Shown here: positions 22,091-34,971 of the stretch, piece after piece
How positions within the stretch are numbered: the stretch's first letter is position 1
Layout: every line of letters begins with the position of its first letter
DNA from: a bacterium
GTDB lineage: Bacteria; Armatimonadota; Zipacnadia; Zipacnadales; Zipacnadaceae
Length of the DNA stretch: 42,470 nt
Assembly (NCBI GenBank): GCA_030603495.1
Contig: JAUVXR010000022.1
Span: forward strand, 1-42,470
Reading direction: 5' to 3'
Program-made: the position numbers and the translations under genes
The notes under the pieces: generated by a model
What the model saw: only the letters and a program-made list of their open reading frames with translations
Database searches by the model: none
What the model was told of the DNA's origin: nothing

Positions 22091-24160
22091 CTATATCCTC
22101 TTGCGCAGGCGGAGCCAGCGGCGGCGGAGCCTGTCAATCTGAGAGTCAGTGGCCGGCGCTGCCGAGTACCTCAACTCGTACAGAGCAGCAGTGACGCGCC
22201 GGAGGGTGCCGCCCAGGTGGACCGGGACGAGCTTGGCGCTCAGGACCGAATCGAGAAGTTCATTGGGCGTATGCTCGGGACCAGGGCGCAGGCCGTGCTT
22301 GCGGAGGGCTTTGCGGTAGAAGCGGTGCCACTCGCTCTCCAGACGGTTCCAGGCAAGCCTCCGGGCCAGTCGGGCTTGCCACCAGGCGCCCAAGAGGTTC
22401 ACGTTCACGAACATGGCGCCCAACAGCGCGATAAGTGCCAGGATGCCGAGCGCCAGCGTGCCTGCCCGCGTGGCCCTGGCGACTACCAGCCGGAATTGTC
22501 CGCTCCGCCACAGGCGGGCAAGTGTCTCTTCTTCGAGCCGCGTCTGGGCCTGCGGGTCAAAGGGGACCCAGCCGTAGCCCGGGAAGTAGACTTCAACCCA
22601 GGCGTGGGCATCCTTGCCGCGCACGAGGTACGTGCCCCGCGCGAAGTCATATTGGCCGGTGGCAAAGCCGGTGGCGACTCGGGTAGGCACGCCGGCCAGC
22701 CGGCACATCATAGCCATGGCGGTGGCAAAGAGGCCGCAGTCGCCCCGCTTGCTGGTCAACAGGAAGTAGATCGCTGAGTCCATATTGCGCGGCGTTCGCG
22801 GCGGTGATTCGGTGTACAGGTAGTTCTGCTCCAGGAATTCCATTATCTGGGTAACCTTGTCATAAGGCGTCTCGGCGCTGGCGGTGACTTCCTCGACCAA
22901 GCCACCCAACCGGGTCTCCACAGCAACCGGCACCCACCAATACCACGTGCGCCGGGTCCATTCGGGGCGCAGATATTGTGTACCGGCGGCGCGGAGTTGC
23001 TGCGGTGAAGGATCGGGTACCTTGGAGACCACGCGGTAGGAGCTGCCGACGGGCATAGCAGGTGCTACTTGGACCACCCCGGACGGCTGGCTGGTCAGTT
23101 CGGCCATCCATTGGGTGCCGCGCGCGTCTGTGATCGGGCCGACTTCGGCTGGCTGGGCCGCGGCAAATACTACCGCTGAGGAGATCTTCTCCAAATGGAA
23201 GACTTGCTCGAAGTCGGCGTCAATCAGCGAACGCAGCTCCGGCATCTGGTAGCGACCGCCGTCGGCGGCCCTCAACTCAATAGTCGCCTGGTCCTTGGCA
23301 AACCAGGACTGGCCCTCGTAGGTGTCGTAGACGCGGCCCCGCCATAAGGCGGGCGTATCCGACTCGACCGTCATAACTATCTGCTGGGTCAGGTGAGCCC
23401 GGCCGCCTCCGACCCAGAAACCACGGTCAGGCTCAGCGTAGTCGGCCGTGTTGACCTGGGGCCACCGCCAGGGAATCCGCTTGGCGTTCTCGTAGAGATC
23501 GGGTGACACCTGGTACATTATGTGGCTGGCGCCTGCTGCGATCACCGCTACTGCCAGGAACAGTACTGCCGTCGGTATCAGTTGATTCCCGCTCCACCGC
23601 AGCCACGTTGTCTGCCGGCGGCCTACTTCACGAATTCGCTCTGTTCTGAGCAGGTTATCGTAGGCAAGGGTGTAGATAGCCGCGAACAGATACACGAGAA
23701 ACGAGACAATAGTCACGGCGTTTAGGTTGACTGTGCCCATAAGGCCGAGGACAGCCAGACCGGAGACCAGGCAGAGGATAGTATGTTCCCGGCGGCTCTG
23801 GATGAAGCAGAAGCCCACCATGACCCAGGCGATTAGCGCGGCCAGGGCGATATCAGGCTGTGCGATTACTTGGAACGGGTAGAGCAGGCTGGCTGGGAAG
23901 ACGTCTACTCGCCGGGCGACGATGAAGGCGGTGAAGGCGCCGACAATGAGAATCGTGCCGAGAAAATTCAAGTTGGCGCTGCCGCGTGCCGTCAGAAAGC
24001 TGCAGACCAAGCCGGCGGCGATGGTCAGACAGACGGCTAGCTCGTAGAACGGCGCGTCCACTGTCGCGCCAATGACACTGACAGCCGCCACGCAGGCTAC
24101 CAGCAGCCCCCCAAACAGGGGCAACATGTCAAAGGCGTTCTGCCGACTAGCCGGCGACAC
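22091..24160 (-). CDS. TgpA-like membrane transglutaminase (DUF3488)
   Basis: This is a 689-residue protein starting with GTG at 24160, overlapping the DUF58 gene by 14 bases. Residues 1-215 hold six or more TM helices (DUF3488). A periplasmic region follows with a transglutaminase core: Cys475 in SKRGDCGLFATAMAMMCRLA, His519 in RGKDAHAWVEVYFPGYGW and Asp535 in VPFDP, a complete triad. A TM helix near 566-588 and a DUF4129-type cytosolic tail end the protein. The MoxR-DUF58-TgpA order is a widely conserved cluster of unclear function, probably protein cross-linking or processing at the envelope. Confidence 0.85.
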   Translation of the reverse strand: MSPASRQNAFDMLPLFGGLLVACVAAVSVIGATVDAPFYELAVCLTIAAGLVCSFLTARGSANLNFLGTILIVGAFTAFIVARRVDVFPASLLYPFQVIAQPDIALAALIAWVMVGFCFIQSRREHTILCLVSGLAVLGLMGTVNLNAVTIVSFLVYLFAAIYTLAYDNLLRTERIREVGRRQTTWLRWSGNQLIPTAVLFLAVAVIAAGASHIMYQVSPDLYENAKRIPWRWPQVNTADYAEPDRGFWVGGGRAHLTQQIVMTVESDTPALWRGRVYDTYEGQSWFAKDQATIELRAADGGRYQMPELRSLIDADFEQVFHLEKISSAVVFAAAQPAEVGPITDARGTQWMAELTSQPSGVVQVAPAMPVGSSYRVVSKVPDPSPQQLRAAGTQYLRPEWTRRTWYWWVPVAVETRLGGLVEEVTASAETPYDKVTQIMEFLEQNYLYTESPPRTPRNMDSAIYFLLTSKRGDCGLFATAMAMMCRLAGVPTRVATGFATGQYDFARGTYLVRGKDAHAWVEVYFPGYGWVPFDPQAQTRLEEETLARLWRSGQFRLVVARATRAGTLALGILALIALLGAMFVNVNLLGAWWQARLARRLAWNRLESEWHRFYRKALRKHGLRPGPEHTPNELLDSVLSAKLVPVHLGGTLRRVTAALYELRYSAAPATDSQIDRLRRRWLRLRKRI

Positions 24161-25388
24161 GTTGCCACCCCCTGAAGTTGGCGATCAGGCTCAGATCGCC
24201 CCGGATGGGGTAGACGCGGCAGCGGTGGGCGCGAAGCTGCTCGATGAAGTGGTGGTACGAGACTTGCGCACCATCCGCGGCCGCGGATGGCACTCCAAAG
24301 CTGGGGACGAACAGTGGGAACCAGATTAGCGAATTACCCCATGCCTGGAGGGTGGCGGCGACGGTGAGCATCTCTGGCCCGGTCTGCGGACTAATAATGG
24401 CCACTGCTCCTGCGCGGCTTAGTTGCTTGCGCCGGTGATCGAGCACCTGCAACAGCCGATCGGCGCTGTCGGCCCGGACCCGGGCCAGAGCTTCGAGGAT
24501 AGCGGTCTGCGATTGGTCCGGTCGGGTAAAGGGTACGCTCCAGTCGCGGCTGCCCCAGGCAATGAGTTGAGCTGCGCCTCCCTGGCGTAGTGCCAAGGCC
24601 AGCAGGCTGGCTGCCAGAGTGACGCTGTACTCGAGGGTGCTATGGCTGCCCACACCAATGTGAACATTGCGCGAGAGATCGAGAATGACGGTGGCGCCGA
24701 GGCTATGCTGTTCTTCGCGCTCGGTTACCACCAGTTTGTTAGTGTGGGCGCTCGCCTTCCAGTGAATGTGTCGCAGGTCGTCGCCGGGCACGTACTCCCG
24801 CACCCCATAGATATCCGGCCCCTGGGGGTTCTTACGGCGGGTTAGCGTGCGGGTAGCTACGCCGGCCGGTGTCGGCATCCACACGTTGGGCAGCGCCAGC
24901 GGCTTGGGATAAACAATCAGCTCCTGGGCCTGGGGCAAGCGGCGGTAGAATTCGTACATCCCCAACAGATCAGGCGAGGCCAGCTTCAAGTCCCCCAGTT
25001 GGTAGACGCCCCGCTGCTCGGGGACGACTTCATAGTGGAAGCTGCGGCGCTCGTAAGGCGCCAGGTCAGCGACCACCTGGTAGGGATCGTCACTGGCTTG
25101 CAGGCTGGGGGGGAGCACGTCTTCGACGGTGAACAAGAAGCGGCGGCGACCCGCCCGGTTGTGTACCGTCAAACTAGCTTTGACTGGCTCACCAGCGACT
25201 GCACGGCTCGCCAGGGACCGGGTCACGTCCAGCTTCTGCAGGTTAATGCGGGTGAGCAGGTAAGAGAGTGGCGCAAGCAGGCCCCAGGCTGCGGCCATGT
25301 AGAAAAGCTGGTAGACGTGCAGCACAAAGCCGACGGTGAGCAGGAACGCGCTGCCAAAGATTAGTGTATACCACTTGTGCGCTTTCAT
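24147..25388 (-). CDS. DUF58 (vWA-like) membrane protein
   Basis: This is a 413-residue protein. Two N-terminal TM helices (TLIFGSAFLLTVGFVLHVYQ and MAAAWGLLAPLSYLL) precede a beta-rich region and the DUF58 hallmark PDIYGVREYVPGDDLRHIHW, then KASAHTNKLVVTEREE and the vWA-like ATVILDLS. DUF58 proteins act with MoxR ATPases and transglutaminases. The gene lies 10 bases after moxR and overlaps the transglutaminase gene. Confidence 0.85.
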   Translation of the reverse strand: MKAHKWYTLIFGSAFLLTVGFVLHVYQLFYMAAAWGLLAPLSYLLTRINLQKLDVTRSLASRAVAGEPVKASLTVHNRAGRRRFLFTVEDVLPPSLQASDDPYQVVADLAPYERRSFHYEVVPEQRGVYQLGDLKLASPDLLGMYEFYRRLPQAQELIVYPKPLALPNVWMPTPAGVATRTLTRRKNPQGPDIYGVREYVPGDDLRHIHWKASAHTNKLVVTEREEQHSLGATVILDLSRNVHIGVGSHSTLEYSVTLAASLLALALRQGGAAQLIAWGSRDWSVPFTRPDQSQTAILEALARVRADSADRLLQVLDHRRKQLSRAGAVAIISPQTGPEMLTVAATLQAWGNSLIWFPLFVPSFGVPSAAADGAQVSYHHFIEQLRAHRCRVYPIRGDLSLIANFRGWQRVAG

Positions 25389-25398
25389 TGTTGCTTTC

Positions 25399-26346
25399 TC
25401 ACTGGCCGAGGGGCACTGGGACCCGGGCTAAGACCTGCTCGACCACCTCCCGGCTGGTCGTTCCCTGGAAAGCCACATCCGCCGACAGAATTATGCGGTG
25501 CCCCAGGGCCGGGTAAGCGACGTGCTTGATGTCGTCGGGAATAACATAATCGCGCTGGCATACCGCGGCCAGGGCCTGGCTGAGACGCATCAGGGCAATA
25601 CTGCCCCGCGGACTAGCTCCCAGTTCGACGGTGGCATCCTCGCGAGTGGCCCGGCTCAGGTTCACCATGTATTCTTTGAGGCTGTCGTCCAGGTGGATGC
25701 GGCGGACTTGCTGCTGCAATTCCACCAGTTCCGCGGGCGTCAGGACCGGCTCGACCAGTTCAATGGGGTGCTGCACCATCTGCTTGCTGAGCATGGCGAC
25801 TTCATCGGTGGGGCTGGGGTAGCCCAGGCTGATGCGCCCCAGGAAGCGGTCCAACTGGGCCTCGGGCAGCCGGTAAGTCCCCTCGTACTCAATCGGGTTC
25901 TCGGTGGCAATGACGAAGAAGGGATTGGGCAGCGGGTGGGTCACACCGTCCGCGGTGACCTGGAACTCCTCCATACACTCTAGTAGCGAGGCCTGCGACT
26001 TGGGTGTAGCCCGATTAATCTCGTCGACTAGAACGATATTCGCGAATACCGGACCGGGCCGGAACTCAAACTCGCCACTGCTCTGGTTGTAGACCGATAT
26101 CCCGGTCACGTCCGCTGGCAGCAGGTCGGGCGTGAACTGGATGCGCTTGAAGGTGCAGTCCAGTGACTTGGCCAGGGCGCGAGCCAGCATCGTCTTGCCC
26201 ACGCCGGGGATGTCCTCGATCAAGATATGTCCGCCGGCGAGCAGCGCCGCCACGGCTAATCGGACCACATCGGTCTTGCCGATAATCACGGTTTCGACGT
26301 TGTCAATCAGCGCCTGGATGGACTCGCCGCTCCGCATCTCGCTCAT
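25399..26346 (-). CDS. MoxR-family AAA+ ATPase
   Basis: The ATG at 26346 (GGGGA ribosome site) is chosen over a start at 26412 that would overlap the dehydrogenase gene. The 315-residue protein has Walker A EDIPGVGKTMLARAL (Lys51), Walker B NIVLVDEINRA (Asp108-Glu109), sensor 1 FFVIATENPIEYEGTYRLPE and the arginine-finger region QLDRFLGRISLGYP. MoxR ATPases are chaperone-like partners of vWA proteins. Upstream of DUF58 and TgpA it completes the classic trio. Confidence 0.9.
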   Translation of the reverse strand: MSEMRSGESIQALIDNVETVIIGKTDVVRLAVAALLAGGHILIEDIPGVGKTMLARALAKSLDCTFKRIQFTPDLLPADVTGISVYNQSSGEFEFRPGPVFANIVLVDEINRATPKSQASLLECMEEFQVTADGVTHPLPNPFFVIATENPIEYEGTYRLPEAQLDRFLGRISLGYPSPTDEVAMLSKQMVQHPIELVEPVLTPAELVELQQQVRRIHLDDSLKEYMVNLSRATREDATVELGASPRGSIALMRLSQALAAVCQRDYVIPDDIKHVAYPALGHRIILSADVAFQGTTSREVVEQVLARVPVPLGQ

Positions 26347-26369
26347 TACTGTCCCCGCTCTGCTTTCAG

Positions 26370-27542
26370 TTAATAGGCCTGCTCGTAGATCCCAATGATG
26401 TCTCGCATACACACCGTTCTGGGATTGCGGCTGATATGCGGGCTTTCTATGGCATCTGCGGCCATTCGGCCAATAGCCGACTTATCCACTCCCACGTGGC
26501 TCATTCGCCGGGGAGCTCCGACGTCCTGTGCCAGTTCGCGGACGGCTGCTACAGCCTGTCTACTGGCCGACTCAATACTCTGTTCATCATCTAAGACGCC
26601 CATAGCGGCACCAATGTTCGCGAATTCGGGCATTGCCGCAGGCCGGTTGAATTCCATCCCGAACGGTAGCAAGATAGCATTAGCCACGCCGTGTGGGACA
26701 TCAAACAGCGCGGACAGCGGTAGCGCCATAGCGTGGACGATACCCAGGCGGCTAACCGAGAAAGCCAGGCCTGCCATCATTGCCGCCCGCTGCATCCCTG
26801 CCTGGGCCTCGAGGTCTCCCGTGTTTCTTACCGCTGCCCGGAAATGTCGGGCAATGAGTTTGATGGCCTCGTGGACGCGCTTGCGGCTTGGCCCGGTCGC
26901 TTCCTTGCTGATGTAGGACTCGACGGCATGGGTCAGGGCGTCCATGCCGGCAGCTACCTGAGCTCCCCGGGGAGTCGAAGTCAGCAAAGTCGGGTCGAGC
27001 AGCGCGTATTTGGGGTAGAAGGATTCGTGGTTAAGTACCAGCTTGTGGTGAGTCTCGGTGAAGGTAATGACGGAAAACGGCGTGACCTCCGAGCCGGTGC
27101 CGGCGGTGGTGGGAACGGCGATGAAGGGCAGGACAGTGTCCGGCACTGTCGTTGGCTGCCCGGCGCACTCCTGGCTGAATATCCAGCCTTCCTGACCAGC
27201 CTCCGCGGCGATGGCCTTGCCTGCGTCCATACTCGAGCCCCCGCCGATGGCGACAATGATGTCAGCGCCCCGGCTGTGGGCATACTCACCGCCGGCGGCT
27301 ACGGTACGATCAGACGGCTCCGGTTCGACTTGATCGAAAACCTCGACTGTAGTCGTGGCCGGCGCCACCTCGCCCAGGCTAGCCACTTGAGGTAGCCGTG
27401 AGACGTTCTTTCCGCAGACCACCAGAACTCTGTGGCAGCCCAGTTTGTCGGTATACGTGAAGATCTGGGCCAGAGCGCCAGGGCCGGATATGACCTCTAC
27501 AGGATTGCCGGGCACTTTTTCGGTGCGGAGGTCAAGAGCCAT
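26370..27542 (-). CDS. Iron-containing alcohol dehydrogenase
   Basis: This is a 390-residue group III alcohol dehydrogenase: nucleotide-binding AIGGGSSMDAGKAIA (about 98-112), PTTAGTGSEVT, and the metal ligands Asp201 and His205 (GMDALTHAVES), His270 and His284 (HAMALPLSALFDVPHG). The full set predicts an active NAD(P)-linked, Fe(II)-dependent enzyme for a primary alcohol or aldehyde. The substrate is unknown. It is divergent from the protease/ubiquitin-like block, sharing a 199-base intergenic region with it. Confidence 0.9.
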   Translation of the reverse strand: MALDLRTEKVPGNPVEVISGPGALAQIFTYTDKLGCHRVLVVCGKNVSRLPQVASLGEVAPATTTVEVFDQVEPEPSDRTVAAGGEYAHSRGADIIVAIGGGSSMDAGKAIAAEAGQEGWIFSQECAGQPTTVPDTVLPFIAVPTTAGTGSEVTPFSVITFTETHHKLVLNHESFYPKYALLDPTLLTSTPRGAQVAAGMDALTHAVESYISKEATGPSRKRVHEAIKLIARHFRAAVRNTGDLEAQAGMQRAAMMAGLAFSVSRLGIVHAMALPLSALFDVPHGVANAILLPFGMEFNRPAAMPEFANIGAAMGVLDDEQSIESASRQAVAAVRELAQDVGAPRRMSHVGVDKSAIGRMAADAIESPHISRNPRTVCMRDIIGIYEQAY

Positions 27543-27741: not shown

Positions 27742-28644
27742 ATGAGGCACGAGTATCTGTGGGTTGCCGTAGTCGGCGTTGTTGGGGTGACTGCGGCGGT
27801 TTGCGCAGCAGACATGACCGCTGCTATCGAGCGGGTCGGGGAGAGCGTCTTCACGGTCAAGACCGGCGACCGGGTGGGGGCGGGCTTCATCGTCAGCGCC
27901 GATGGGCGCGCTCTGAGCAGCGCTCACGTGGTCGGGGAGGCCACAGAGGTCACGGTGACTCTGGCTAATGGGGTAGAGTTGAGCGCCACGGTGGTAGGCT
28001 GTGACGAAGTCCGGGACTTGGCTCTGCTCGATTTAGGCGTAGAGAATCTGCCCGTGGTCCAGTTTGCCTCGGCCTCGGGGCTGAAGCAGGGAACGAAGGT
28101 GGCCGCGCTGGGTGCGCCGCTTGGTCTGGGGGGATCGGTAACTGAAGGCATCGTCAGCGCGGTCGGTCGGCAGATTGATGACAAGGAGTACATCCAGATT
28201 GATGCAGCGCTGAACGAGGGCAACTCCGGAGGGCCCATCATTGACGAAAAAGGCCGTGTGGTCGGCGTGGCCACCGGGGTGGTCAAGGAGGCGGAGAATG
28301 TGGGCTTTGCCGTGCCCAGCGACGAAGCTATCGCTCTCCTGCAGAGTGTGGGGATGAAGCTGAGTCTGCCGCTGGACGAAGGGGCAACCCCTGTCTCGGT
28401 GGGTTCCGCCCCCGAACCAGCGAGGCCCACAGCACCGGTTTGGCCTCCTGCACCGAGAGCGAAGGCGCCTGGCTTGCTGTTGCTCATCGGCATTCCGCTG
28501 GTAGTCTCGCTGGTGGTCTCGTTGGTGGTTTCGCTGCTGGTCACCCGTGCTGTGGGGCGCGGGCCCAGTGCGCCCGAGGTTAGCCTCTTCCCACCCAGCG
28601 ACCAACAAGAAGACCTGTCCGATGTTGATATCACGCTGGAATAG
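27742..28644 (+). CDS. Membrane-anchored trypsin-like (HtrA/Do-type) serine protease
   Basis: This is a 300-residue protein. The ATG at 27742 is chosen for its AAGGGGG ribosome site and the signal peptide that follows (LWVAVVGVVGVTAAVCAA). The protease domain is complete: His62 in SSAHVVG, Asp92 in RDLALL, Ser162 in NEGNSGGPI. It has no PDZ domain, unlike DegP. A Pro-rich linker leads to a TM helix (about 244-268) and a 32-residue tail ending DLSDVDITLE. By topology the protease faces the periplasm and the tail the cytoplasm. The final VDITL resembles the motif shared by the ubiquitin-like cassette that starts 100 bases downstream, so it is probably part of that system (inference). Confidence 0.85.
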   Translation: MRHEYLWVAVVGVVGVTAAVCAADMTAAIERVGESVFTVKTGDRVGAGFIVSADGRALSSAHVVGEATEVTVTLANGVELSATVVGCDEVRDLALLDLGVENLPVVQFASASGLKQGTKVAALGAPLGLGGSVTEGIVSAVGRQIDDKEYIQIDAALNEGNSGGPIIDEKGRVVGVATGVVKEAENVGFAVPSDEAIALLQSVGMKLSLPLDEGATPVSVGSAPEPARPTAPVWPPAPRAKAPGLLLLIGIPLVVSLVVSLVVSLLVTRAVGRGPSAPEVSLFPPSDQQEDLSDVDITLE

Positions 28645-28743: not shown

Positions 28744-29013
28744 ATGGGTAAAGTAAGTGTGACGATACTTGACGCCACTGGCTCCAAGGAACAGAAGGCC
28801 AGCCTGCCGGATGACGCGCCGGTGCGCCGGATCATCGGCAAGCTCATCGAAATGATGAAGCTGCCGTCCACCGGCCCCGACGGCCAGCCGATGAGCTACA
28901 AGTTCCACCACAAGGCCTCGGGCAAGCAGCTCACCGACGACCAGACGCTGTCCGACGCCGGCGTCAAGGACGGTGATGTTCTGCGCCTCCAGCCGGAGAT
29001 CACCGCGGGCTGA
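28744..29013 (+). CDS. Ubiquitin-like beta-grasp protein (conjugation tag candidate)
   Basis: This 89-residue protein has a very strong Shine-Dalgarno AAGGAGG (28729-28735). It matches a ubiquitin/YukD-like beta-grasp: strand pair KVSVTILDATG / KQKASL-type, helix VRRIIGKLIEMMKL, YKFHHKASGKQLTDDQTLSD (counterpart of ubiquitin's IFAGKQLEDGRTLSD) and the last strand DGDVLRLQ. It ends ITAG: the terminal residue is Gly, with no extension after it and Ala instead of Gly before it. It would not need C-terminal processing before activation by the E1 encoded 23 bases downstream. Expected role: covalent modifier of target proteins. Confidence 0.85.
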   Translation: MGKVSVTILDATGSKEQKASLPDDAPVRRIIGKLIEMMKLPSTGPDGQPMSYKFHHKASGKQLTDDQTLSDAGVKDGDVLRLQPEITAG

Positions 29014-29036: not shown

Positions 29037-30233
29037 GTGGAGCAGATGACCGAAGACCAGGTTCTGGACATTGATCTTGAGGAGGACCGTTATCACCGGC
29101 TGCGGCTGATCCCCTGGTGGGACCAGGAGCGGCTGTTTGACGCCCGGGTAATGGTGGCCGGCGCCGGGGCGCTGGGTAACGAGATTCTCAAGCAGCTCGC
29201 CCTGCTCGGCGTGGGTAACATTTTTGTGGTGGATATGGATATCATCGAGGAGTCCAATCTCACCCGAGCGGTGCTCTTTCGCAAAGAAGACGAGGGCCAG
29301 CCCAAGGCGGAGGTGGCCGCGCGGGCACTGATGGCGCTCAATCCGGAGATTAGGGTCCAGAGCTTTGTGGGTAACATCGTATATGACGTAGGTGCCGGCG
29401 TCTTTGCGGATATGGATATCGTCATCGGCGCGCTGGATAACCGCGAGGCGCGGGTGGCGATAAATCAGGCGTGCTGGCAGTTGGGCAAGCCCTTTGTTGA
29501 CGGCGCCATTGAGATAATCCAGGGCGTGGCCCGGATCTTCTGCGGGCCGGACGGGCCCTGCTACGAGTGTACAATGAACGCCAAGGATTACGAGCTGCTC
29601 AGCCAGCGGCGCTCGTGCGCGCTGCTGTCGCGGGATGACCTGATTCTGGGCAAGGTGCCCACGACGCCGACAACTGCAGCGATTATCGCGGGCATCCAGA
29701 CCCAGGAGGCGGTGAAGTGGCTGCACCGCGACCGGGAAATGCCACTGCTTCTTGGTAGGGGCCTGGTGTATGACGGATTCAGCAATGAAACGTATATTGT
29801 GGAGTACCAGAGGCGCGCGGACTGCCCGGCGCATATCACGCTGCCGCCGGTGCAGGAGTTGGACAAGTCGGCGGATACCGCCACCGTCGGCGAGATGCTG
29901 GAACTGGTAAGGTCTGAAGTCTCGCCCGAGGCGGTGCTGGAGTTCGAGCGCGAAATCTGTATTGGCCTTCATTGCCCACACTGCCATGAGAGCGAGCCGG
30001 TCTTCCGCTCGCTGGGCAAGCTCACCGAGAGCGAGGGCCGTTGTCCGCACTGCCACGAGCTGCGCGAGCCGGAGCTGACTCACGCGATATATGGTGACGA
30101 GGATTACCTGGACCGGACCCTGGCGGAGATGGGCCTGCCGCTGTACGATATTGTCACTGGTCGAGATGGGTTGGAGCGGGCAGCCTTCTTGCTGGCTGCC
30201 GACCGCGAAACTGCCTTGGGCTGCCTGGCCTGA
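29037..30233 (+). CDS. E1-like (ThiF/MoeB-fold) ubiquitin-activating enzyme
   Basis: This is a 398-residue protein starting at GTG 29037 (ATG 29046 is an alternative). The adenylation domain has GAGALGNE (42-49), VVDMD (Asp66), ESNLTRAVLFR with Arg77 and Arg82, Lys90, and ALDNREAR (Asp134). CYEC (175, 178) is a zinc half-site. Cys194 in RRSCALLSRD sits where E1-type catalytic Cys residues lie, followed by TTPTTAAIIAGIQTQEAVK, as in E1 enzymes that pair with E2s. The C-terminal part adds two CPHC knuckles (313-316, 336-339), a zinc ribbon. The N-terminus carries VLDIDLEED (9-17), the motif shared across the cassette. It should activate the ubiquitin-like protein with ATP and pass it to the E2. 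Confidence 0.9.
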   Translation: MEQMTEDQVLDIDLEEDRYHRLRLIPWWDQERLFDARVMVAGAGALGNEILKQLALLGVGNIFVVDMDIIEESNLTRAVLFRKEDEGQPKAEVAARALMALNPEIRVQSFVGNIVYDVGAGVFADMDIVIGALDNREARVAINQACWQLGKPFVDGAIEIIQGVARIFCGPDGPCYECTMNAKDYELLSQRRSCALLSRDDLILGKVPTTPTTAAIIAGIQTQEAVKWLHRDREMPLLLGRGLVYDGFSNETYIVEYQRRADCPAHITLPPVQELDKSADTATVGEMLELVRSEVSPEAVLEFEREICIGLHCPHCHESEPVFRSLGKLTESEGRCPHCHELREPELTHAIYGDEDYLDRTLAEMGLPLYDIVTGRDGLERAAFLLAADRETALGCLA

Positions 30234-30263: not shown

Positions 30264-31316
30264 ATGAGTGATCATGGGTTCGCGAACGTCAGTGGTAGCA
30301 GGCACGATCTGGATATCTCGCTGCAGCCGCCCAGGCCTGTGCCTGAGGAGCGACCGAAGGACACGGTGGTAATGGTCGCCCAGTCAGTGGTAGAGGAGGT
30401 GCGCCGCCACGGTGACAAGGACACCGCCCGGGAGCAGGGGGGCGTGCTGGTCGGCACCGTCGCATCCAGCCGCGATAAGGTCTACGTTACCGTGGAGGCA
30501 GCTATACCTGCGCCCCATGCTCGGGCCGATCGGAGCAGCGTGACCTTCACCCAGGAGAGCTGGGGGGAGATAAATCGCGTTAAGGATAGACAGTATCCCG
30601 ACCAGGACATCGTGGGCTGGTATCACACTCACCCGGGCTTTGGCGTCTTTCTTTCCGACTACGATACTTTCATTCATCGCAACTTCTTCCAAGCGCCGTG
30701 GCAGGTGGCGTTCGTGGTGGACCCGGTCTCCGAGCAGTCTGGCTTCTTCACCTGGAAGGACGGCGAGATCGTGCCCAGCGGCCAGTACAACGTCTTCAGC
30801 CCGCAGAAGGTGGAACGGCCCCAGCCACCAGCCCAGCCGGAGGCGCCGGTTTGGACTGAACCGGTGGTAGCGCCGCCGTCGGTGAATATCGTTACGATCG
30901 CGGCGCTGATGGTCTTGGCCCTGCAAATAGTCATTCTAGCGATGCTACTGCGCGGAGGGCCTAGTGGGCTACCCGTGGCTGGCGGTGGCGAAGCGGTAGC
31001 CACGCGGCTGGAGGCGGTCCAGGGCGAGTTGGCGACTAGTGCCGCGACGCTACACGAGCTAGCCGGGAAGCTCAGTCAAGTCAAGGCCTTGCCGTTGACC
31101 GCGGGGGCCACAGCAGCAGGAATAACCTACGAGTGGTACGAGGTCGAGGCCGGTGACAGCTTGTGGCGGATCGCCGAGCGGCACTATGACAAAGGGGAGC
31201 TTTATACACTGATTGCGGCGGAGAATGGCATTCCGCTGCCCGCCGGTACAATAGTACCCGGGCAAAAGTTGCGCCTGCCCGAACTGCCGGAGGAACCTGA
31301 TGTCGCCACTGAGTGA
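30264..31316 (+). CDS. JAMM/JAB isopeptidase with TM helix and LysM domain
   Basis: This is a 350-residue protein. Residues about 34-180 form a JAB/MPN domain with all zinc/catalytic residues: Glu57 (REQGGVLVG), His121 and His123, Ser131, Asp134 (GWYHTHPGFGVFLSDYD). A Pro-rich linker, a TM helix (about 209-229), a coiled spacer and a C-terminal LysM domain (about 290-338: YEVEAGDSLWRIAERHYDKG ... VPGQKLRLP) follow. LysM binds peptidoglycan or similar glycans, so the JAB domain should be cytoplasmic and LysM periplasmic. The N-terminus has DLDISL (15-20). JAMM enzymes remove ubiquitin-like tags. The 3' end overlaps the next gene by 17 bases. Confidence 0.9.
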   Translation: MSDHGFANVSGSRHDLDISLQPPRPVPEERPKDTVVMVAQSVVEEVRRHGDKDTAREQGGVLVGTVASSRDKVYVTVEAAIPAPHARADRSSVTFTQESWGEINRVKDRQYPDQDIVGWYHTHPGFGVFLSDYDTFIHRNFFQAPWQVAFVVDPVSEQSGFFTWKDGEIVPSGQYNVFSPQKVERPQPPAQPEAPVWTEPVVAPPSVNIVTIAALMVLALQIVILAMLLRGGPSGLPVAGGGEAVATRLEAVQGELATSAATLHELAGKLSQVKALPLTAGATAAGITYEWYEVEAGDSLWRIAERHYDKGELYTLIAAENGIPLPAGTIVPGQKLRLPELPEEPDVATE

Positions 31317-32043
31317 GTGTGGGGAGGAGCTTGACGTTGAGATTCAGCAAGCGGCTCCAATGGCGCTGGCCGAAGGGCTCGACCCGGCGGATGATGAAAG
31401 CCTCAGGCTGATTGCCCTGGGGCAGCCGGCTGAGGATCGACGGGTATTCGTGAGCTATCCCTGTCTCAAACAGATGCTGGCCCACACCCAACGCAATTTG
31501 GAGGAAGAGATCGCGGGGCTCCTACTGGGTCAGGTTTTCCGCGGCAGCTGCGGCCTGGTCACCGTCCTGGCGGAGGCCGTGCCCGCCGTCTACACCGACT
31601 CGGGACAGGGGCACGTCACCTTGTCCCACGAGACCTGGTCAGATATCTACCAGTATCTGGAGTCGCTGGCCGCAGACGCCGTGATCGTGGGCTGGTATCA
31701 CACTCACCCGGGCTTTGGGGTGTTTTTCTCCGCTCAGGATGACTTCATTCAGAAGAATTTCTTCGGAGCACCGGGACAGGTGGGGGCGGTGGTTGATCCG
31801 GTGGCGAAGAGCATCCTACTGTTTGCCTGCGACAATAACGAGGTGAAGCCGCTGGCGGGTATATGGCTAACTGCGGGCGAGGAAAGCTACGCTGCTGCCC
31901 AGCGGGTCGCGGCCGGGCTGTGTTACGACAGCCGGCGGCTGGCGGCTAGGGACTGGCTGAGAAGCTGGGGCAAAAAGCTGCGCGAAAGCCTGTCCGGGGA
32001 GCAGCCCGCAGAGGAGTCACTACCCAGCGAGAAGGAAGCTTAA
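31300..32043 (+). CDS. JAMM/JAB isopeptidase, second copy
   Basis: This is a 247-residue protein whose ATG lies inside the previous gene. It has a JAB domain (about 47-200) with Glu70 (EEEIAGLLLG), His134, His136, Ser144 and Asp147 (GWYHTHPGFGVFFSAQD), so active-site complete. No TM segment; the C-terminus is charged (LRSWGKKLRESLSGEQPAEE). The N-terminal tail has EELDVEIQQ (9-17), the shared motif. A 35-base stretch encoding the active site is identical to the first JAMM gene (30609-30643 and 31684-31718). A cytosolic deconjugase is the likely role. Confidence 0.9.
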   Translation: MSPLSECGEELDVEIQQAAPMALAEGLDPADDESLRLIALGQPAEDRRVFVSYPCLKQMLAHTQRNLEEEIAGLLLGQVFRGSCGLVTVLAEAVPAVYTDSGQGHVTLSHETWSDIYQYLESLAADAVIVGWYHTHPGFGVFFSAQDDFIQKNFFGAPGQVGAVVDPVAKSILLFACDNNEVKPLAGIWLTAGEESYAAAQRVAAGLCYDSRRLAARDWLRSWGKKLRESLSGEQPAEESLPSEKEA

Positions 32044-32049
32044 CGCCCT

Positions 32050-32583
32050 ATGAACGCCCGACTGCGGCGACTGTATGCCGACTACCAACAGATTCGTAAC
32101 GAGTTCACGGGCCACCCGTATATTGATGTCGAGCCGATTCGGGGGAACCCGCCCGAGGCATATCGCGTGGTCTATCACATGAAGGGCCTGGAGCTGGACG
32201 AGAGCAGCAACCGCCCGCGGGTGCGTAGCGAACATGCGGCGACAATCTACCTGCACCGGGATTATCCTCGCCACAAGCCTAAGTGTGCGATGGAGACGCC
32301 GATATTCCATCCCAACTTCGGCTCACACATCTGTATTGACGACTACTGGGCAGCCGGCGAGCTGCTCACCGATATTATCATCCAGATCGGCCAGATGATT
32401 CAATACCAGAGCCACAATTCCAAGAGCCCGCTGAATGCGGTGGCAGCACGCTGGGCGGCGCAAAATGAGCACCTATTTCCCATTGGGAACGCCGATCTGT
32501 ACCAGCCGGACCTAGATATAGACCTGGTAGCAGGCCCAGGCGCCGGGCTGCAGGAGACGGACATCGAGATAGAACTGCTCTAG
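32050..32583 (+). CDS. E2-like ubiquitin-conjugating enzyme
   Basis: This is a 177-residue UBC-fold protein: N-terminal helix MNARLRRLYADYQQIRNEFT, strands, then TPIFHPNFGSHICIDDYWAA. This has the HPN motif (87-89), catalytic Cys95 and the conserved Trp100, followed by LLTDIIIQIGQMIQYQSHNS and SPLNAVAARWAAQN (the E2 'spLN..Aa..w' helix). This is close to eukaryotic E2s in motif spacing. The C-terminal 27 residues form a tail with two copies of the cassette motif, DLDIDL (154-159) and DIEIELL (171-177). It should accept the ubiquitin-like protein from the E1 on Cys95 and act with the RING-like protein encoded next. Confidence 0.92.
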   Translation: MNARLRRLYADYQQIRNEFTGHPYIDVEPIRGNPPEAYRVVYHMKGLELDESSNRPRVRSEHAATIYLHRDYPRHKPKCAMETPIFHPNFGSHICIDDYWAAGELLTDIIIQIGQMIQYQSHNSKSPLNAVAARWAAQNEHLFPIGNADLYQPDLDIDLVAGPGAGLQETDIEIELL

Positions 32584-32650: not shown

Positions 32651-33385
32651 ATGCGCTGTCCCCTCTGTCGCGAAAATATCATAGTCCAGGGGCGCTTTTG
32701 CCCGAAGTGCGGCGACCAAATATTTGGCCGGCCTCTCCCGGGCCGGAGCGCGCCGCCGGATGGCCCCCGCCTGGAATTGGAGCTGCCCCCGCCCTCGGTG
32801 GGTAAACCGCGAGGAGAGGTTCTGGAAATAGAGCTTGAACCCTCGGTCCAACCGACTGGGGCAGGAGCCGGCGCGGTGGGCAAGCTGTGCCCGTATTGTC
32901 GCTTCCCCATCAAGGCGGGTGACGAGGTGGTCACTTGCCCAGACTGCCAGACGACGCTGCATGCCGATTGCTGGCGGGCCAACGAGGGATGTACTACTTA
33001 TGGCTGTCGCAGTTCGCCCCAGGTTGCGGTGGCCCGGCGGGCGAGCAGAGTCTATGGGCAGGCGGACGCTTCTGCCGGCTCGTACGGGTCGGCAAGGTGG
33101 GGCCAGGCGGTGCCGTTGGGTGCTCGGCAGCTCATCGAGGCGGAGTTCGACGGCCAGTGTACCAACGCGCTGCTCTTCACTATCCTGCAACTTTTTTTCT
33201 GTGCCGGCTTCCTCTCCATCATTACACTTGTCTGGGGTGTGTCGCTGCTGTCTCAAATGAAGCGACTCGACGTCACGCCGAGGCCAGCGCGCGGCCGGGC
33301 CATTGCGGCAGTGGTCATCAGTGGCGGCGTGATGTTGCTATGGCTGACCATTTTGGTACTGAAGCTGGGTGGCTCCAGCGGTTGA
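32651..33385 (+). CDS. Zinc-ribbon/RING-like E3 candidate with two TM helices
   Basis: This is a 244-residue protein; ATG 32651 is chosen, with GTG 32588 as the alternative giving 21 more residues. N-terminal zinc ribbon: CPLC (3-6) and CPKC (17-20). The linker has two shared motifs, LELELP (41-46) and VLEIELEP (57-64). A treble-clef/RING-like domain follows: Cys80, Cys83, Cys96, Cys99, His104, Cys107, Cys114, Cys119 (CPYC ... CPDC ... H-x2-C). It resembles the prokaryotic RING families reported next to bacterial ubiquitin-like systems. Two TM helices (172-198, 217-238) anchor it. It probably serves as an E3, bringing the E2 to membrane targets. Confidence 0.8.
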   Translation: MRCPLCRENIIVQGRFCPKCGDQIFGRPLPGRSAPPDGPRLELELPPPSVGKPRGEVLEIELEPSVQPTGAGAGAVGKLCPYCRFPIKAGDEVVTCPDCQTTLHADCWRANEGCTTYGCRSSPQVAVARRASRVYGQADASAGSYGSARWGQAVPLGARQLIEAEFDGQCTNALLFTILQLFFCAGFLSIITLVWGVSLLSQMKRLDVTPRPARGRAIAAVVISGGVMLLWLTILVLKLGGSSG

Positions 33386-33460: not shown

Positions 33461-34093
33461 ATGAGCAGCGAAGAGCCCGAAATCGAAATCAGCCCGGCTC
33501 AGTCGCCCGAGCGCCCGGTCCGGTCTCGGCCAGCGGCCCCGCTGGTGGTGGTCGGCGAGGTTGGGTCGGTGGGGGAGGGGCGCGCGATCTTCCTGCACGT
33601 CCGGGCCGTCGCGGCGATAATGGATTCGCTGCCGGGGCAAGAACGCATGGAGGTGGGTGGCCTGCTGGTAGGCGCTGAGTGTCAGGACCAAGTAGGCTCG
33701 TATCTGTTGATAGCTGGGGCAGTCGGTGCGGGCAGCGCCCGCAGCGCTGCCTTGTCGGTCACCTTCACACATGAGGCATGGGACCAACTGCTGGCGGAGA
33801 AGGCGGCGCGCTACCCAGGGGAGGCCGTGGTCGGCTGGTATCATACTCATCCGGGGCTGGGCGTGTTTCTCTCCCCACAGGACCTGTTCATCCACCACCA
33901 TTTCTTTGCCGAGGCCGTGCACGTGGCGCTGGTGGTTGACCCCGCTGACTTTACCTGGGGGATATTCTATTGGCAGGGACCGGACCTGGTTGCGGCGCAG
34001 GGCTGTTACGTATATGGCGAGCCGCAGGAAGGTTATGACCATCTGGCTGGGCTGTTGAGGAACTACCAGGCTGGTGGCACTCAAGACAACTAG
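33461..34093 (+). CDS. JAMM/JAB isopeptidase, third copy
   Basis: This is a 210-residue protein from ATG 33461. The JAB domain (about 40-190) is active-site complete: Glu64 (MEVGGLLVG), His128, His130, Ser138, Asp141 (GWYHTHPGLGVFLSPQD). It is more diverged from the other two copies in DNA sequence. The N-terminal tail holds EPEIEISPAQ (5-14), the shared motif in short form, followed by a Pro/Arg-rich linker. No TM segment. It closes the conjugation block; a 12-base palindrome GCGGATATCCGC (34101-34112) follows. Confidence 0.88.
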   Translation: MSSEEPEIEISPAQSPERPVRSRPAAPLVVVGEVGSVGEGRAIFLHVRAVAAIMDSLPGQERMEVGGLLVGAECQDQVGSYLLIAGAVGAGSARSAALSVTFTHEAWDQLLAEKAARYPGEAVVGWYHTHPGLGVFLSPQDLFIHHHFFAEAVHVALVVDPADFTWGIFYWQGPDLVAAQGCYVYGEPQEGYDHLAGLLRNYQAGGTQDN

Positions 34094-34236: not shown

Positions 34237-34971
34237 ATGAAAGCTGCGATCAAGTTGGTGGTTATCGTATGTGCAGCACTTCTGGCCAGTGGACTCGGAG
34301 CCCAGGAGGCTGAACTGCCGGCGTCTGGGGAACAGCCCACCGCCCCGGCGCAGCCCGCTGCCGTGCCACAGCCCGCCGCCGTCACAGAGCCGTCGGCTGA
34401 AGACGGAGTTGCGGTCGAGACCGTTACCTCCTATCTGGACAAGATGAACTACGTCTACAAGGTGGACAAGTCGGCCAAGGTGCCGGAGATTGAGCTGCTG
34501 ATGCGGGGGAACAACGGTAACTACGACGTGCGCGTATTCATTGACAACCCCCGCAAGATCGTCTATGTCTGGGTGAATCGGCTTATGACTATTCCCGATC
34601 TCCACCCCCGCAAGTACGTGCTGCTCCAGAAGCTAATGGAACTGAACTGGGAGCTGTTGATCGGCAAGTACGAGTGGGATAAGAGTGACGGTGAGGTGCG
34701 CGTGTCGTACACCTTCAGTACGGAGAATGGAGTAGGCTACGATGCCTTCGTGGCTTGCTTCCAACTCTTGGTCTTGACCGCGGATCGGGACTACCCCAAG
34801 CTCATGCAGCTAATGTGGGGTAGTGTGGAGCAACCCTCAGCTCCGGCCGCAACCCTGGTGCCGCCCGAGAACAAGCCCGAAGAGGCTGCCATCAGCAAGG
34901 AAACTGAACCTAAGCCGGACACCAAGGCCAAGGAAAGCGAACCCAAGCCGGAGGCTCCCGAAAACCCGTAG
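34237..34971 (+). CDS. Exported YbjN-domain protein
   Basis: This is a 244-residue protein with ribosome site GAGGAG further upstream and AAAGGG nearer the ATG. It has a signal peptide (IKLVVIVCAALLASGLGAQ), a Pro/Ala-rich linker, then a YbjN/type III secretion chaperone-like fold (about 63-195): VTSYLDKMNYVYKV, EIELLMRGNNGNYDVRVFID, HPRKYVLLQKLMELNWELLI. The C-terminus is a Lys/Glu/Pro-rich repeat. YbjN proteins are implicated in regulation, but an exported form is unusual. It lies 143 bases after the third JAMM gene; whether it belongs to the conjugation system is open. Confidence 0.7.
   Translation: MKAAIKLVVIVCAALLASGLGAQEAELPASGEQPTAPAQPAAVPQPAAVTEPSAEDGVAVETVTSYLDKMNYVYKVDKSAKVPEIELLMRGNNGNYDVRVFIDNPRKIVYVWVNRLMTIPDLHPRKYVLLQKLMELNWELLIGKYEWDKSDGEVRVSYTFSTENGVGYDAFVACFQLLVLTADRDYPKLMQLMWGSVEQPSAPAATLVPPENKPEEAAISKETEPKPDTKAKESEPKPEAPENP

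Follow-up and report, generated by a model that had tools for sequence, protein, structure and literature searches.

Bacterial operons combining RING, E1, E2, YukD and JAB genes were reportedly predicted by Burroughs, Iyer and Aravind in 2011. For Caldiarchaeum subterraneum, the excerpted texts of PMC5654768 and PMC6043591 describe a Ub-E1-E2-RING-Rpn11 system in which an Rpn11-like JAMM matures and removes the ubiquitin-like modifier (Ubl); according to the latter source, CsRpn11 trims the Ubl precursor to an exposed Gly. A figure legend in Fuchs et al. 2018 also names "bacterial lysM-associated JAMM sequences", left off the map for simplicity, and the excerpted text of that paper holds nothing on their topology, neighbourhood or mechanism (PMC6043591). 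In the bacterial Bil/Bub systems, BilA has two Ubl domains and BilB carries a CEHH motif (PMC11354881), and the operons are defence-linked or DNA-damage regulated (PMC13373217).

We analysed a window of 42,470 nucleotides (positions 1-42,470 of contig JAUVXR010000022.1, forward strand, assembly GCA_030603495.1) from WS1, that is, Candidatus Zipacnadia of the Armatimonadota. A run of seven genes on one strand encodes a YukD-type Ubl, an E1, a JAB-TM-LysM protein, a JAB, an E2, a membrane RING protein and a further JAB, most neighbours lying a few tens of bases apart or overlapping by as much, and the gene of a membrane HtrA-type protease precedes that of the Ubl.

27742-28644, plus strand: HtrA-type trypsin-like serine protease (GNSGGP), ATG start at 27742 inferred; Pfam Trypsin_2, 1.3e-30
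28744-29013, plus strand: YukD/ubiquitin-like modifier, 89 aa, ending ...LRLQPEITAG; Pfam YukD, 1.9e-16
29037-30233, plus strand: E1-like activating enzyme, ThiF fold, RxSC with Cys194, C-terminal Zn-ribbon; Pfam ThiF, 5.6e-56
30264-31316, plus strand: JAB-TM-LysM protein, 350 aa, ATG start
31300-32043, plus strand: second JAB, without TM, JAMM intact; Pfam JAB, 1.8e-12
32050-32583, plus strand: E2 with canonical HPN and Cys95; Pfam UQ_con, 2e-8
32651-33385 (start probable), plus strand: membrane RING protein with zinc ribbon, linker, RING and two TM helices; Pfam Prok-RING_1, 4.9e-11
33461-34093 (start probable), plus strand: third JAB, without TM, JAMM intact; Pfam JAB, 1e-8

The candidate catalytic Cys194 of the E1 is invariant in the 10 aligned E1s, as are H87-P88-N89 and C95 in the E2 ortholog alignment, and the E2 matches yeast Ubc4/Ubc13 in the PDB at about 2e-11. 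In the RING protein, the eight ligands are conserved in the alignment, the Prok-RING_1 match lies above the cutoff, and the RINGs of RNF13/RNF12 ranked best in a Foldseek search of the model, with weak E-values of about 0.07-0.2. The full JAMM motif is present in 3/3 JABs. With a Gly-tailed Ubl, an E1 fold and its Cys, an E2 bearing HPN and Cys, and a RING finger, the cluster, which is chromosomal, encodes a complete predicted pathway for Ubl conjugation and deconjugation.

Several other genes were noted around the cluster. In some genomes of the order, a second E2 paralogue that keeps HPN and Cys and is without the motif tail described below lies upstream of the HtrA gene (L051:12791-13288, L052:5025-5522, L056:5814-6332 and L022:13103-13642). 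Downstream of the third JAB, 34237-34971 encodes a probable secreted YbjN-family protein, whose place beside the cluster is conserved within the genus and in a sister genus. The genes for a MoxR AAA ATPase, a DUF58 protein and a membrane transglutaminase-DUF4129 protein (22091-26412, minus strand), a common trio, also adjoin the cluster; no motif link was found in them. A dedicated proteasome was considered and rejected: the sole PF00227 match in the genome is one open frame of 218 codons, taken as HslV-like.

The Ubl orthologs (18, from the order and one other family) share 81% mean column identity, and ...EITAG is invariant to the terminal Gly in 18/18. This Gly is the last residue in 10/18, while in 8/18 it is followed by 1-10 further residues of unrelated sequence. 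A precursor of this kind is the ...EITAG-RWL of L043. The tail in other phyla reads PE[IV][TV]AG with few exceptions, and a variable extension is present or absent. A Gly followed by a variable extension is the pattern expected if a JAB trims a precursor to an exposed Gly; by analogy with CsRpn11, we infer a putative maturation site at which a JAB would cleave after ...EITAG.

The preliminary description had placed intact JAMM residues, a TM helix at 209-229 and a LysM at 290-338 in one chain, and each of these elements was confirmed in the 350-aa open reading frame at 30264-31316, down to the named residues.

30360-30797, plus strand: Rpn11-like JAMM/JAB domain, residues 33-178, metal ligands and catalytic Glu all intact
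30888-30953, plus strand: transmembrane helix, residues 209-230 (AlphaFold2 and hydrophobicity)
30990-31085, plus strand: predicted coiled-coil stalk, residues 243-274 (AlphaFold2)
31128-31280, plus strand: LysM domain, residues 289-339 (Pfam and AlphaFold2), predicted to lie on the periplasmic face of the inner membrane

Both JAB (residues 36-141, E=1.4e-9) and Prok-JAB (8.6e-8) match above their curated Pfam cutoffs, and LysM (PF01476) matches at 292-339 (1.3e-8, 35.0 bits against a cutoff of 20.9). Glu57, His121, His123, Ser131 and Asp134 are invariant in 24/24 aligned relatives. The only TM-grade segment, residues 209-227, is the sole strongly hydrophobic one (mean Kyte-Doolittle 2.77, Hessa-scale sum -2.6); the best segment elsewhere in the protein scores 1.1. 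In the AlphaFold2 model, pLDDT is mostly above 90 for the JAB core (33-178) and for the LysM (289-339), which has the E-H-H-E order of a beta-alpha-alpha-beta fold, and 84-87 for the helix at 209-230; residues 243-274 form a coiled-coil helix and the linkers are of low confidence. The top Foldseek matches were the Rpn11:ubiquitin complexes of yeast (5u4p) and Caldiarchaeum (6fnn), and a PDB profile search reached RPN11 with E=5e-20, so that by both searches the domain has the MPN fold and its closest kin among the ubiquitin-acting JAMMs. The protein is an Rpn11-like JAMM/JAB of the predicted isopeptidase type. Since its gene is embedded in a complete Ubl pathway, it very probably acts on a ubiquitin-like tag. 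The domain architecture is not due to chance, as JAB was matched by Pfam in 24/24 of the compared relatives and LysM in 18/24; in addition, a similarly placed TM is predicted in nearly all of them, a few falling below or near the hydrophobicity threshold.

All seven enzymes, the HtrA-type protease included, carry a short peptide of alternating hydrophobic and acidic residues in a disordered segment on the predicted cytosolic side.

28621-28638, plus strand: DVDITL in the HtrA tail
29064-29078, plus strand: LDIDL at the E1 N-terminus
30306-30323, plus strand: DLDISL in the N-terminal tail of the JAB-TM-LysM protein
31330-31344, plus strand: LDVEI at the N-terminus of the second JAB
32512-32526 and 32563-32577, plus strand: LDIDL and IEIEL at the E2 C-terminus
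32771-32785 and 32822-32836, plus strand: LELEL and LEIEL in the RING linker
N-terminus of the third JAB: PEIEIS, a weaker form (PEIEI)

Examples of the motif peptides are GSRHDLDISLQPP, EDLSDVDITLE and ETDIEIELL. Against a background of about 1.36 Mb of sampled genome stretches, the bare core was found in 6/7 enzymes and in 34/308 sampled proteins. When acidic flanks and a terminal position were required, the counts were 4/7 against 9/672 (Fisher p=2.8e-6), and with a stricter flank filter 3/7 against 12/1345 (p=3.8e-5), p-values to be read as descriptive, since the motif was defined with the proteins already in view and orthologs do not count as independent. The copy in the JAB-TM-LysM protein itself fails the acidic-flank filter. 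Ortholog segments contained the motif far more often than residue shuffles, with 15/17 against 0.5 expected for HtrA, 18/20 against 1.2 for the E1 and 15/21 against 0.35 for the RING protein. The stronger argument is that the motif recurs in unrelated folds and at differing positions, each time in a region predicted to be cytosolic. A short hydrophobic core with acidic flanks is also what defines a SUMO-interacting motif (SIM), and SIM-like docking of the enzymes to the Ubl would be the most economical reading.

The HtrA-type protease presents the motif from the opposite direction. Its order is signal peptide, protease, C-terminal TM and a predicted cytosolic tail ending in EDLSDVDITLE, and D[IVL]DI.L plus one residue ends this tail in 17/17 homologs. 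More K/R residues follow the C-terminal TM than precede it in 15/17 orthologs, and the reverse was seen in none; since positive charges follow the TM, the tails should lie inside. The protease is thus predicted to have the mirror topology of the JAB-TM-LysM protein, with the protease domain outside and the motif tail inside.

Similar peptides were observed away from the cluster. An unlinked single-pass membrane protein with a periplasmic coiled coil (G000:C13:7922-8587, L149) has the cytosolic N-tail EEIDIEIEE, kept in 13/14 orthologs with one a variant, and is a candidate for an extra partner or substrate. Its position about 3.5 kb from MreC/MreB raised a link to cell-wall genes that we rejected, the relatives being without MreB/MreC neighbours; the neighbour conserved in relatives is a HEAT-repeat protein. 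A zinc-ribbon, multi-TM DUF6159 protein (L150:3001-4083, G000:C14) has an N-terminal DTLEVELESP and is possibly a further member of the motif network. Among the L073-L136 loci, those of Planctomycetota have EIVFLD-like E2 C-termini, LTFLDD in E1 N-tails and DDIxFxE in JAB N-tails, and those of Acidobacteriota have DPW..KIVI in E2 tails. The docking motif may vary by lineage along with the Ubl.

Most genomes of the family, and several families of the order, contain relatives of the JAB-TM-LysM protein, and 34/61 of the relatives searched show some match. The wider pathway (Ubl, E1, JAB, RING, E2 and often a trypsin-like protease) is found in at least nine other phyla, Edaphobacter aggregans DSM 19364 and Tautonia sociabilis being cultured examples, with records from Planctomycetota, Acidobacteriota, Verrucomicrobiota, Myxococcota, KSB1, Sumerlaeota, Actinomycetota, Bacillota, Ignavibacteriota/Bacteroidota and Chloroflexi, some of these phylum names coming from metagenome-assembled genomes that may be mis-binned. 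A TM is predicted in 62/76 JABs of loci L069-L136, most of those without one being second, shorter paralogues. A LysM follows the TM, by Pfam, in 18/24 WS1-group proteins against 3/37 others (L069, L118 and L092 bear it beyond WS1). On the JAB tree the LysM label requires 5 changes and is strongly clustered and concentrated in WS1; for this reason we rejected LysM as a defining part of the pathway. It was apparently lost in L021 and L022/L024. The general feature is the membrane-anchored JAB, since JABs of other phyla nearly always have a TM, and the LysM is a lineage-specific elaboration found mainly in WS1.

The preliminary description had also proposed a transmembrane protein linking the state of the cell wall with removal of a Ubl tag. 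Much of this was supported, namely a protein that crosses the membrane and has its isopeptidase-type domain in the cytosol, a complete Ubl pathway, and a LysM predicted across the membrane in a genome with four PBPs and hence a wall. For the rest, a coupling of wall state to JAB activity would be an attractive reading, and the sequence is compatible with regulation by the wall as well as with mere anchoring to it. A LysM serving only as a static anchor, with a constitutive JAB parked at the wall or septum and not regulated by it, is given slightly less than even odds. Such an anchor agrees with the linker from TM to LysM, variable in sequence and length among the aligned relatives, and with relatives that work as JAB-TM proteins; as L021, L022, L024 and most other phyla have JAB-TM without LysM, the core function can do without wall binding. 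On the other side, LysM is retained over most WS1 families (the 18/24 above) and the stalk keeps its helix, observations that do not separate anchoring from sensing.

That the cluster serves in anti-phage defence, as Bil/Bub operons do, is unlikely. For the most part, the bacterial Ubl cascades known so far have links to defence (PMC12687455), and the E1 and the JAB gave distant matches to the PADLOC E1-E2 and JAB models. However, none of the PADLOC models was matched by the Ubl, the E2 or the RING protein, and no Ubl copies were matched in phages, plasmids or viral contigs. The Ubl, at the identity given above, evolves very slowly, and the gene order of the cluster is kept across families of the order, argH adjoining it in several genomes of the family. 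Nor does the cluster have the tandem-Ubl BilA or the CEHH motif of BilB (PMC11354881), having instead a single 89-aa Ubl and an E2 with HPN. On these grounds (PADLOC, mobile elements, rate and gene order) defence is the less likely role and was set aside. Envelope housekeeping or quality control is the likely one.

The expected arrangement, a predicted one, has the JAB domain in the cytosol and the LysM outside. E1 enzymes need ATP and are cytosolic by established biochemistry. There is no signal peptide, the JAB is N-terminal, and one TM lies between JAB and LysM, as in a single-pass protein; E1 chemistry and the shared motif place the JAB on the same inner side. Flanking charges were dropped as a decider for WS1, where K+R averages 2.21 before and 2.17 after the TM and gives no orientation signal, leaving the orientation to these other features; in other phyla the means are 2.62 before and 1.84 after, leaning N-in (21 against 10). 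We also weighed a cytosolic LysM on the JAB side of a re-entrant or peripheral hydrophobic helix, Kbp-like rather than a wall binder. The neutral charges would allow it, and the best PDB match of the LysM region is the LysM of Kbp (7pvc, 7.8e-10), by its record name a potassium-binding protein, so that LysM need not mean peptidoglycan binding. But the hydrophobicity values are those of a strong single TM, found at the same place in most relatives, the protein has no second TM, and the stalk separates TM and LysM, which makes this arrangement even less probable than a defence role. Only two LysM proteins were detected in the genome, this one and a LysM-G5 protein (L178).

A type VII (ESX/Wss) secretion role, with the JAB trimming a secretion component, takes its cue from YukD, a name from the WXG100 secretion system that Pfam ranks best for the Ubl, and is very improbable, as the neighbours are E1, E2, RING and JAB, these accompany the Ubl across about ten phyla, and a universal C-terminal Gly with a removable extension fits a modifier.

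Our main reading, to which we give a probability of roughly 0.6, is that the JAB-TM-LysM protein is a membrane-tethered deconjugating, and possibly Ubl-maturing, protease of this pathway, which would work on the inner membrane from its cytosolic side. This best explanation takes domain order, intact active sites, gene order and conservation from the sequences and models; its steps would run as follows. A JAB would trim any residues beyond ...EITAG of the Ubl, and the soluble JABs may both mature and recycle it. E1 and E2 would charge the Ubl, and the membrane RING protein would pass it to target lysines near the membrane, where the cytosolic N-terminal JAB domain would cleave the isopeptide bond. 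On the periplasmic side, the stalk and LysM would keep the enzyme tied to the wall, and its location or activity might thereby follow the envelope. The acidic/hydrophobic motif would let every enzyme dock, as a SIM does, on the Ubl or on a partner that they share, and the HtrA-type protease, whose active site faces outward and whose motif tail faces inward, may link envelope proteolysis to the same machinery. In the best reading, the cluster would be an inner-membrane hub of Ubl conjugation and deconjugation with a JAB tethered to, and perhaps gated by, peptidoglycan.

More tentatively, and in our view doubtfully, LysM engagement of peptidoglycan, perhaps with periplasmic HtrA activity, could act through single TM helices on cytosolic Ubl conjugation and deconjugation, a transenvelope circuit in which a SIM-like code would assemble the seven enzymes and further membrane proteins. 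If so, bacteria would run envelope homeostasis by a ubiquitin-like tag, and a real coupling of LysM and JAB would give a direct path from wall state to protein-tag removal. Apart from any wall coupling, the locus offers two concrete and testable predictions, a maturation site in the Ubl and a docking motif common to the enzymes. No known function for this pathway was found in the literature searched.

Compared with the operons of Burroughs and colleagues, the locus has the same gene set, and its RING protein matches the same Prok-RING_1 family. To our knowledge, that prediction was without the JAB-TM-LysM protein, the mirror-topology HtrA, the common cytosolic motif and the Ubl maturation site. 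The Caldiarchaeum system is similar in its single Ubl, E1, E2, small RING and Rpn11-like JAMM, and the JAB model matches CsRpn11; it differs in that CsUb has Gly-Gly with a tail where the WS1 Ubl has Ala-Gly, in having no known HtrA partner, and in that the WS1 cluster has three JABs. We know of no TM or LysM in the Caldiarchaeum JAMM or RING. The eukaryotic PA-TM-RING ligases, such as RNF13, whose RING was the top Foldseek match of the cluster RING protein, likewise span the membrane with the catalytic domain cytosolic and another domain luminal or outside; this is an analogy only, as the outside domain of glycan type belongs in WS1 to the JAB rather than to the E3. The Bil/Bub systems share a Ubl, an E1, an E2 and a JAB family protease, whereas the WS1 cluster has one Ubl, an HPN E2, a membrane RING, a membrane JAB and a membrane protease, and is chromosomal. 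Fuchs et al. 2018 had already noticed LysM in association with JAMM (PMC6043591). In the literature searched we found nothing that describes the TM and its topology, the mirrored HtrA, the site of Ubl maturation or the motif common to the enzymes. The general pathway was therefore known earlier, and the JAB-TM-LysM protein is a real and conserved variant of it. The bacterial Ubl pathways studied so far are mostly soluble and phage-defence-linked; what this locus indicates is a pathway, spread over about ten phyla, that is encoded on the chromosome, evolves slowly and centres on the membrane, its E1, E2 and RING near the eukaryotic ones and its deconjugase and E3 both in the membrane, and the Zipacnadia architecture suggests protein tagging wired to the cell envelope.
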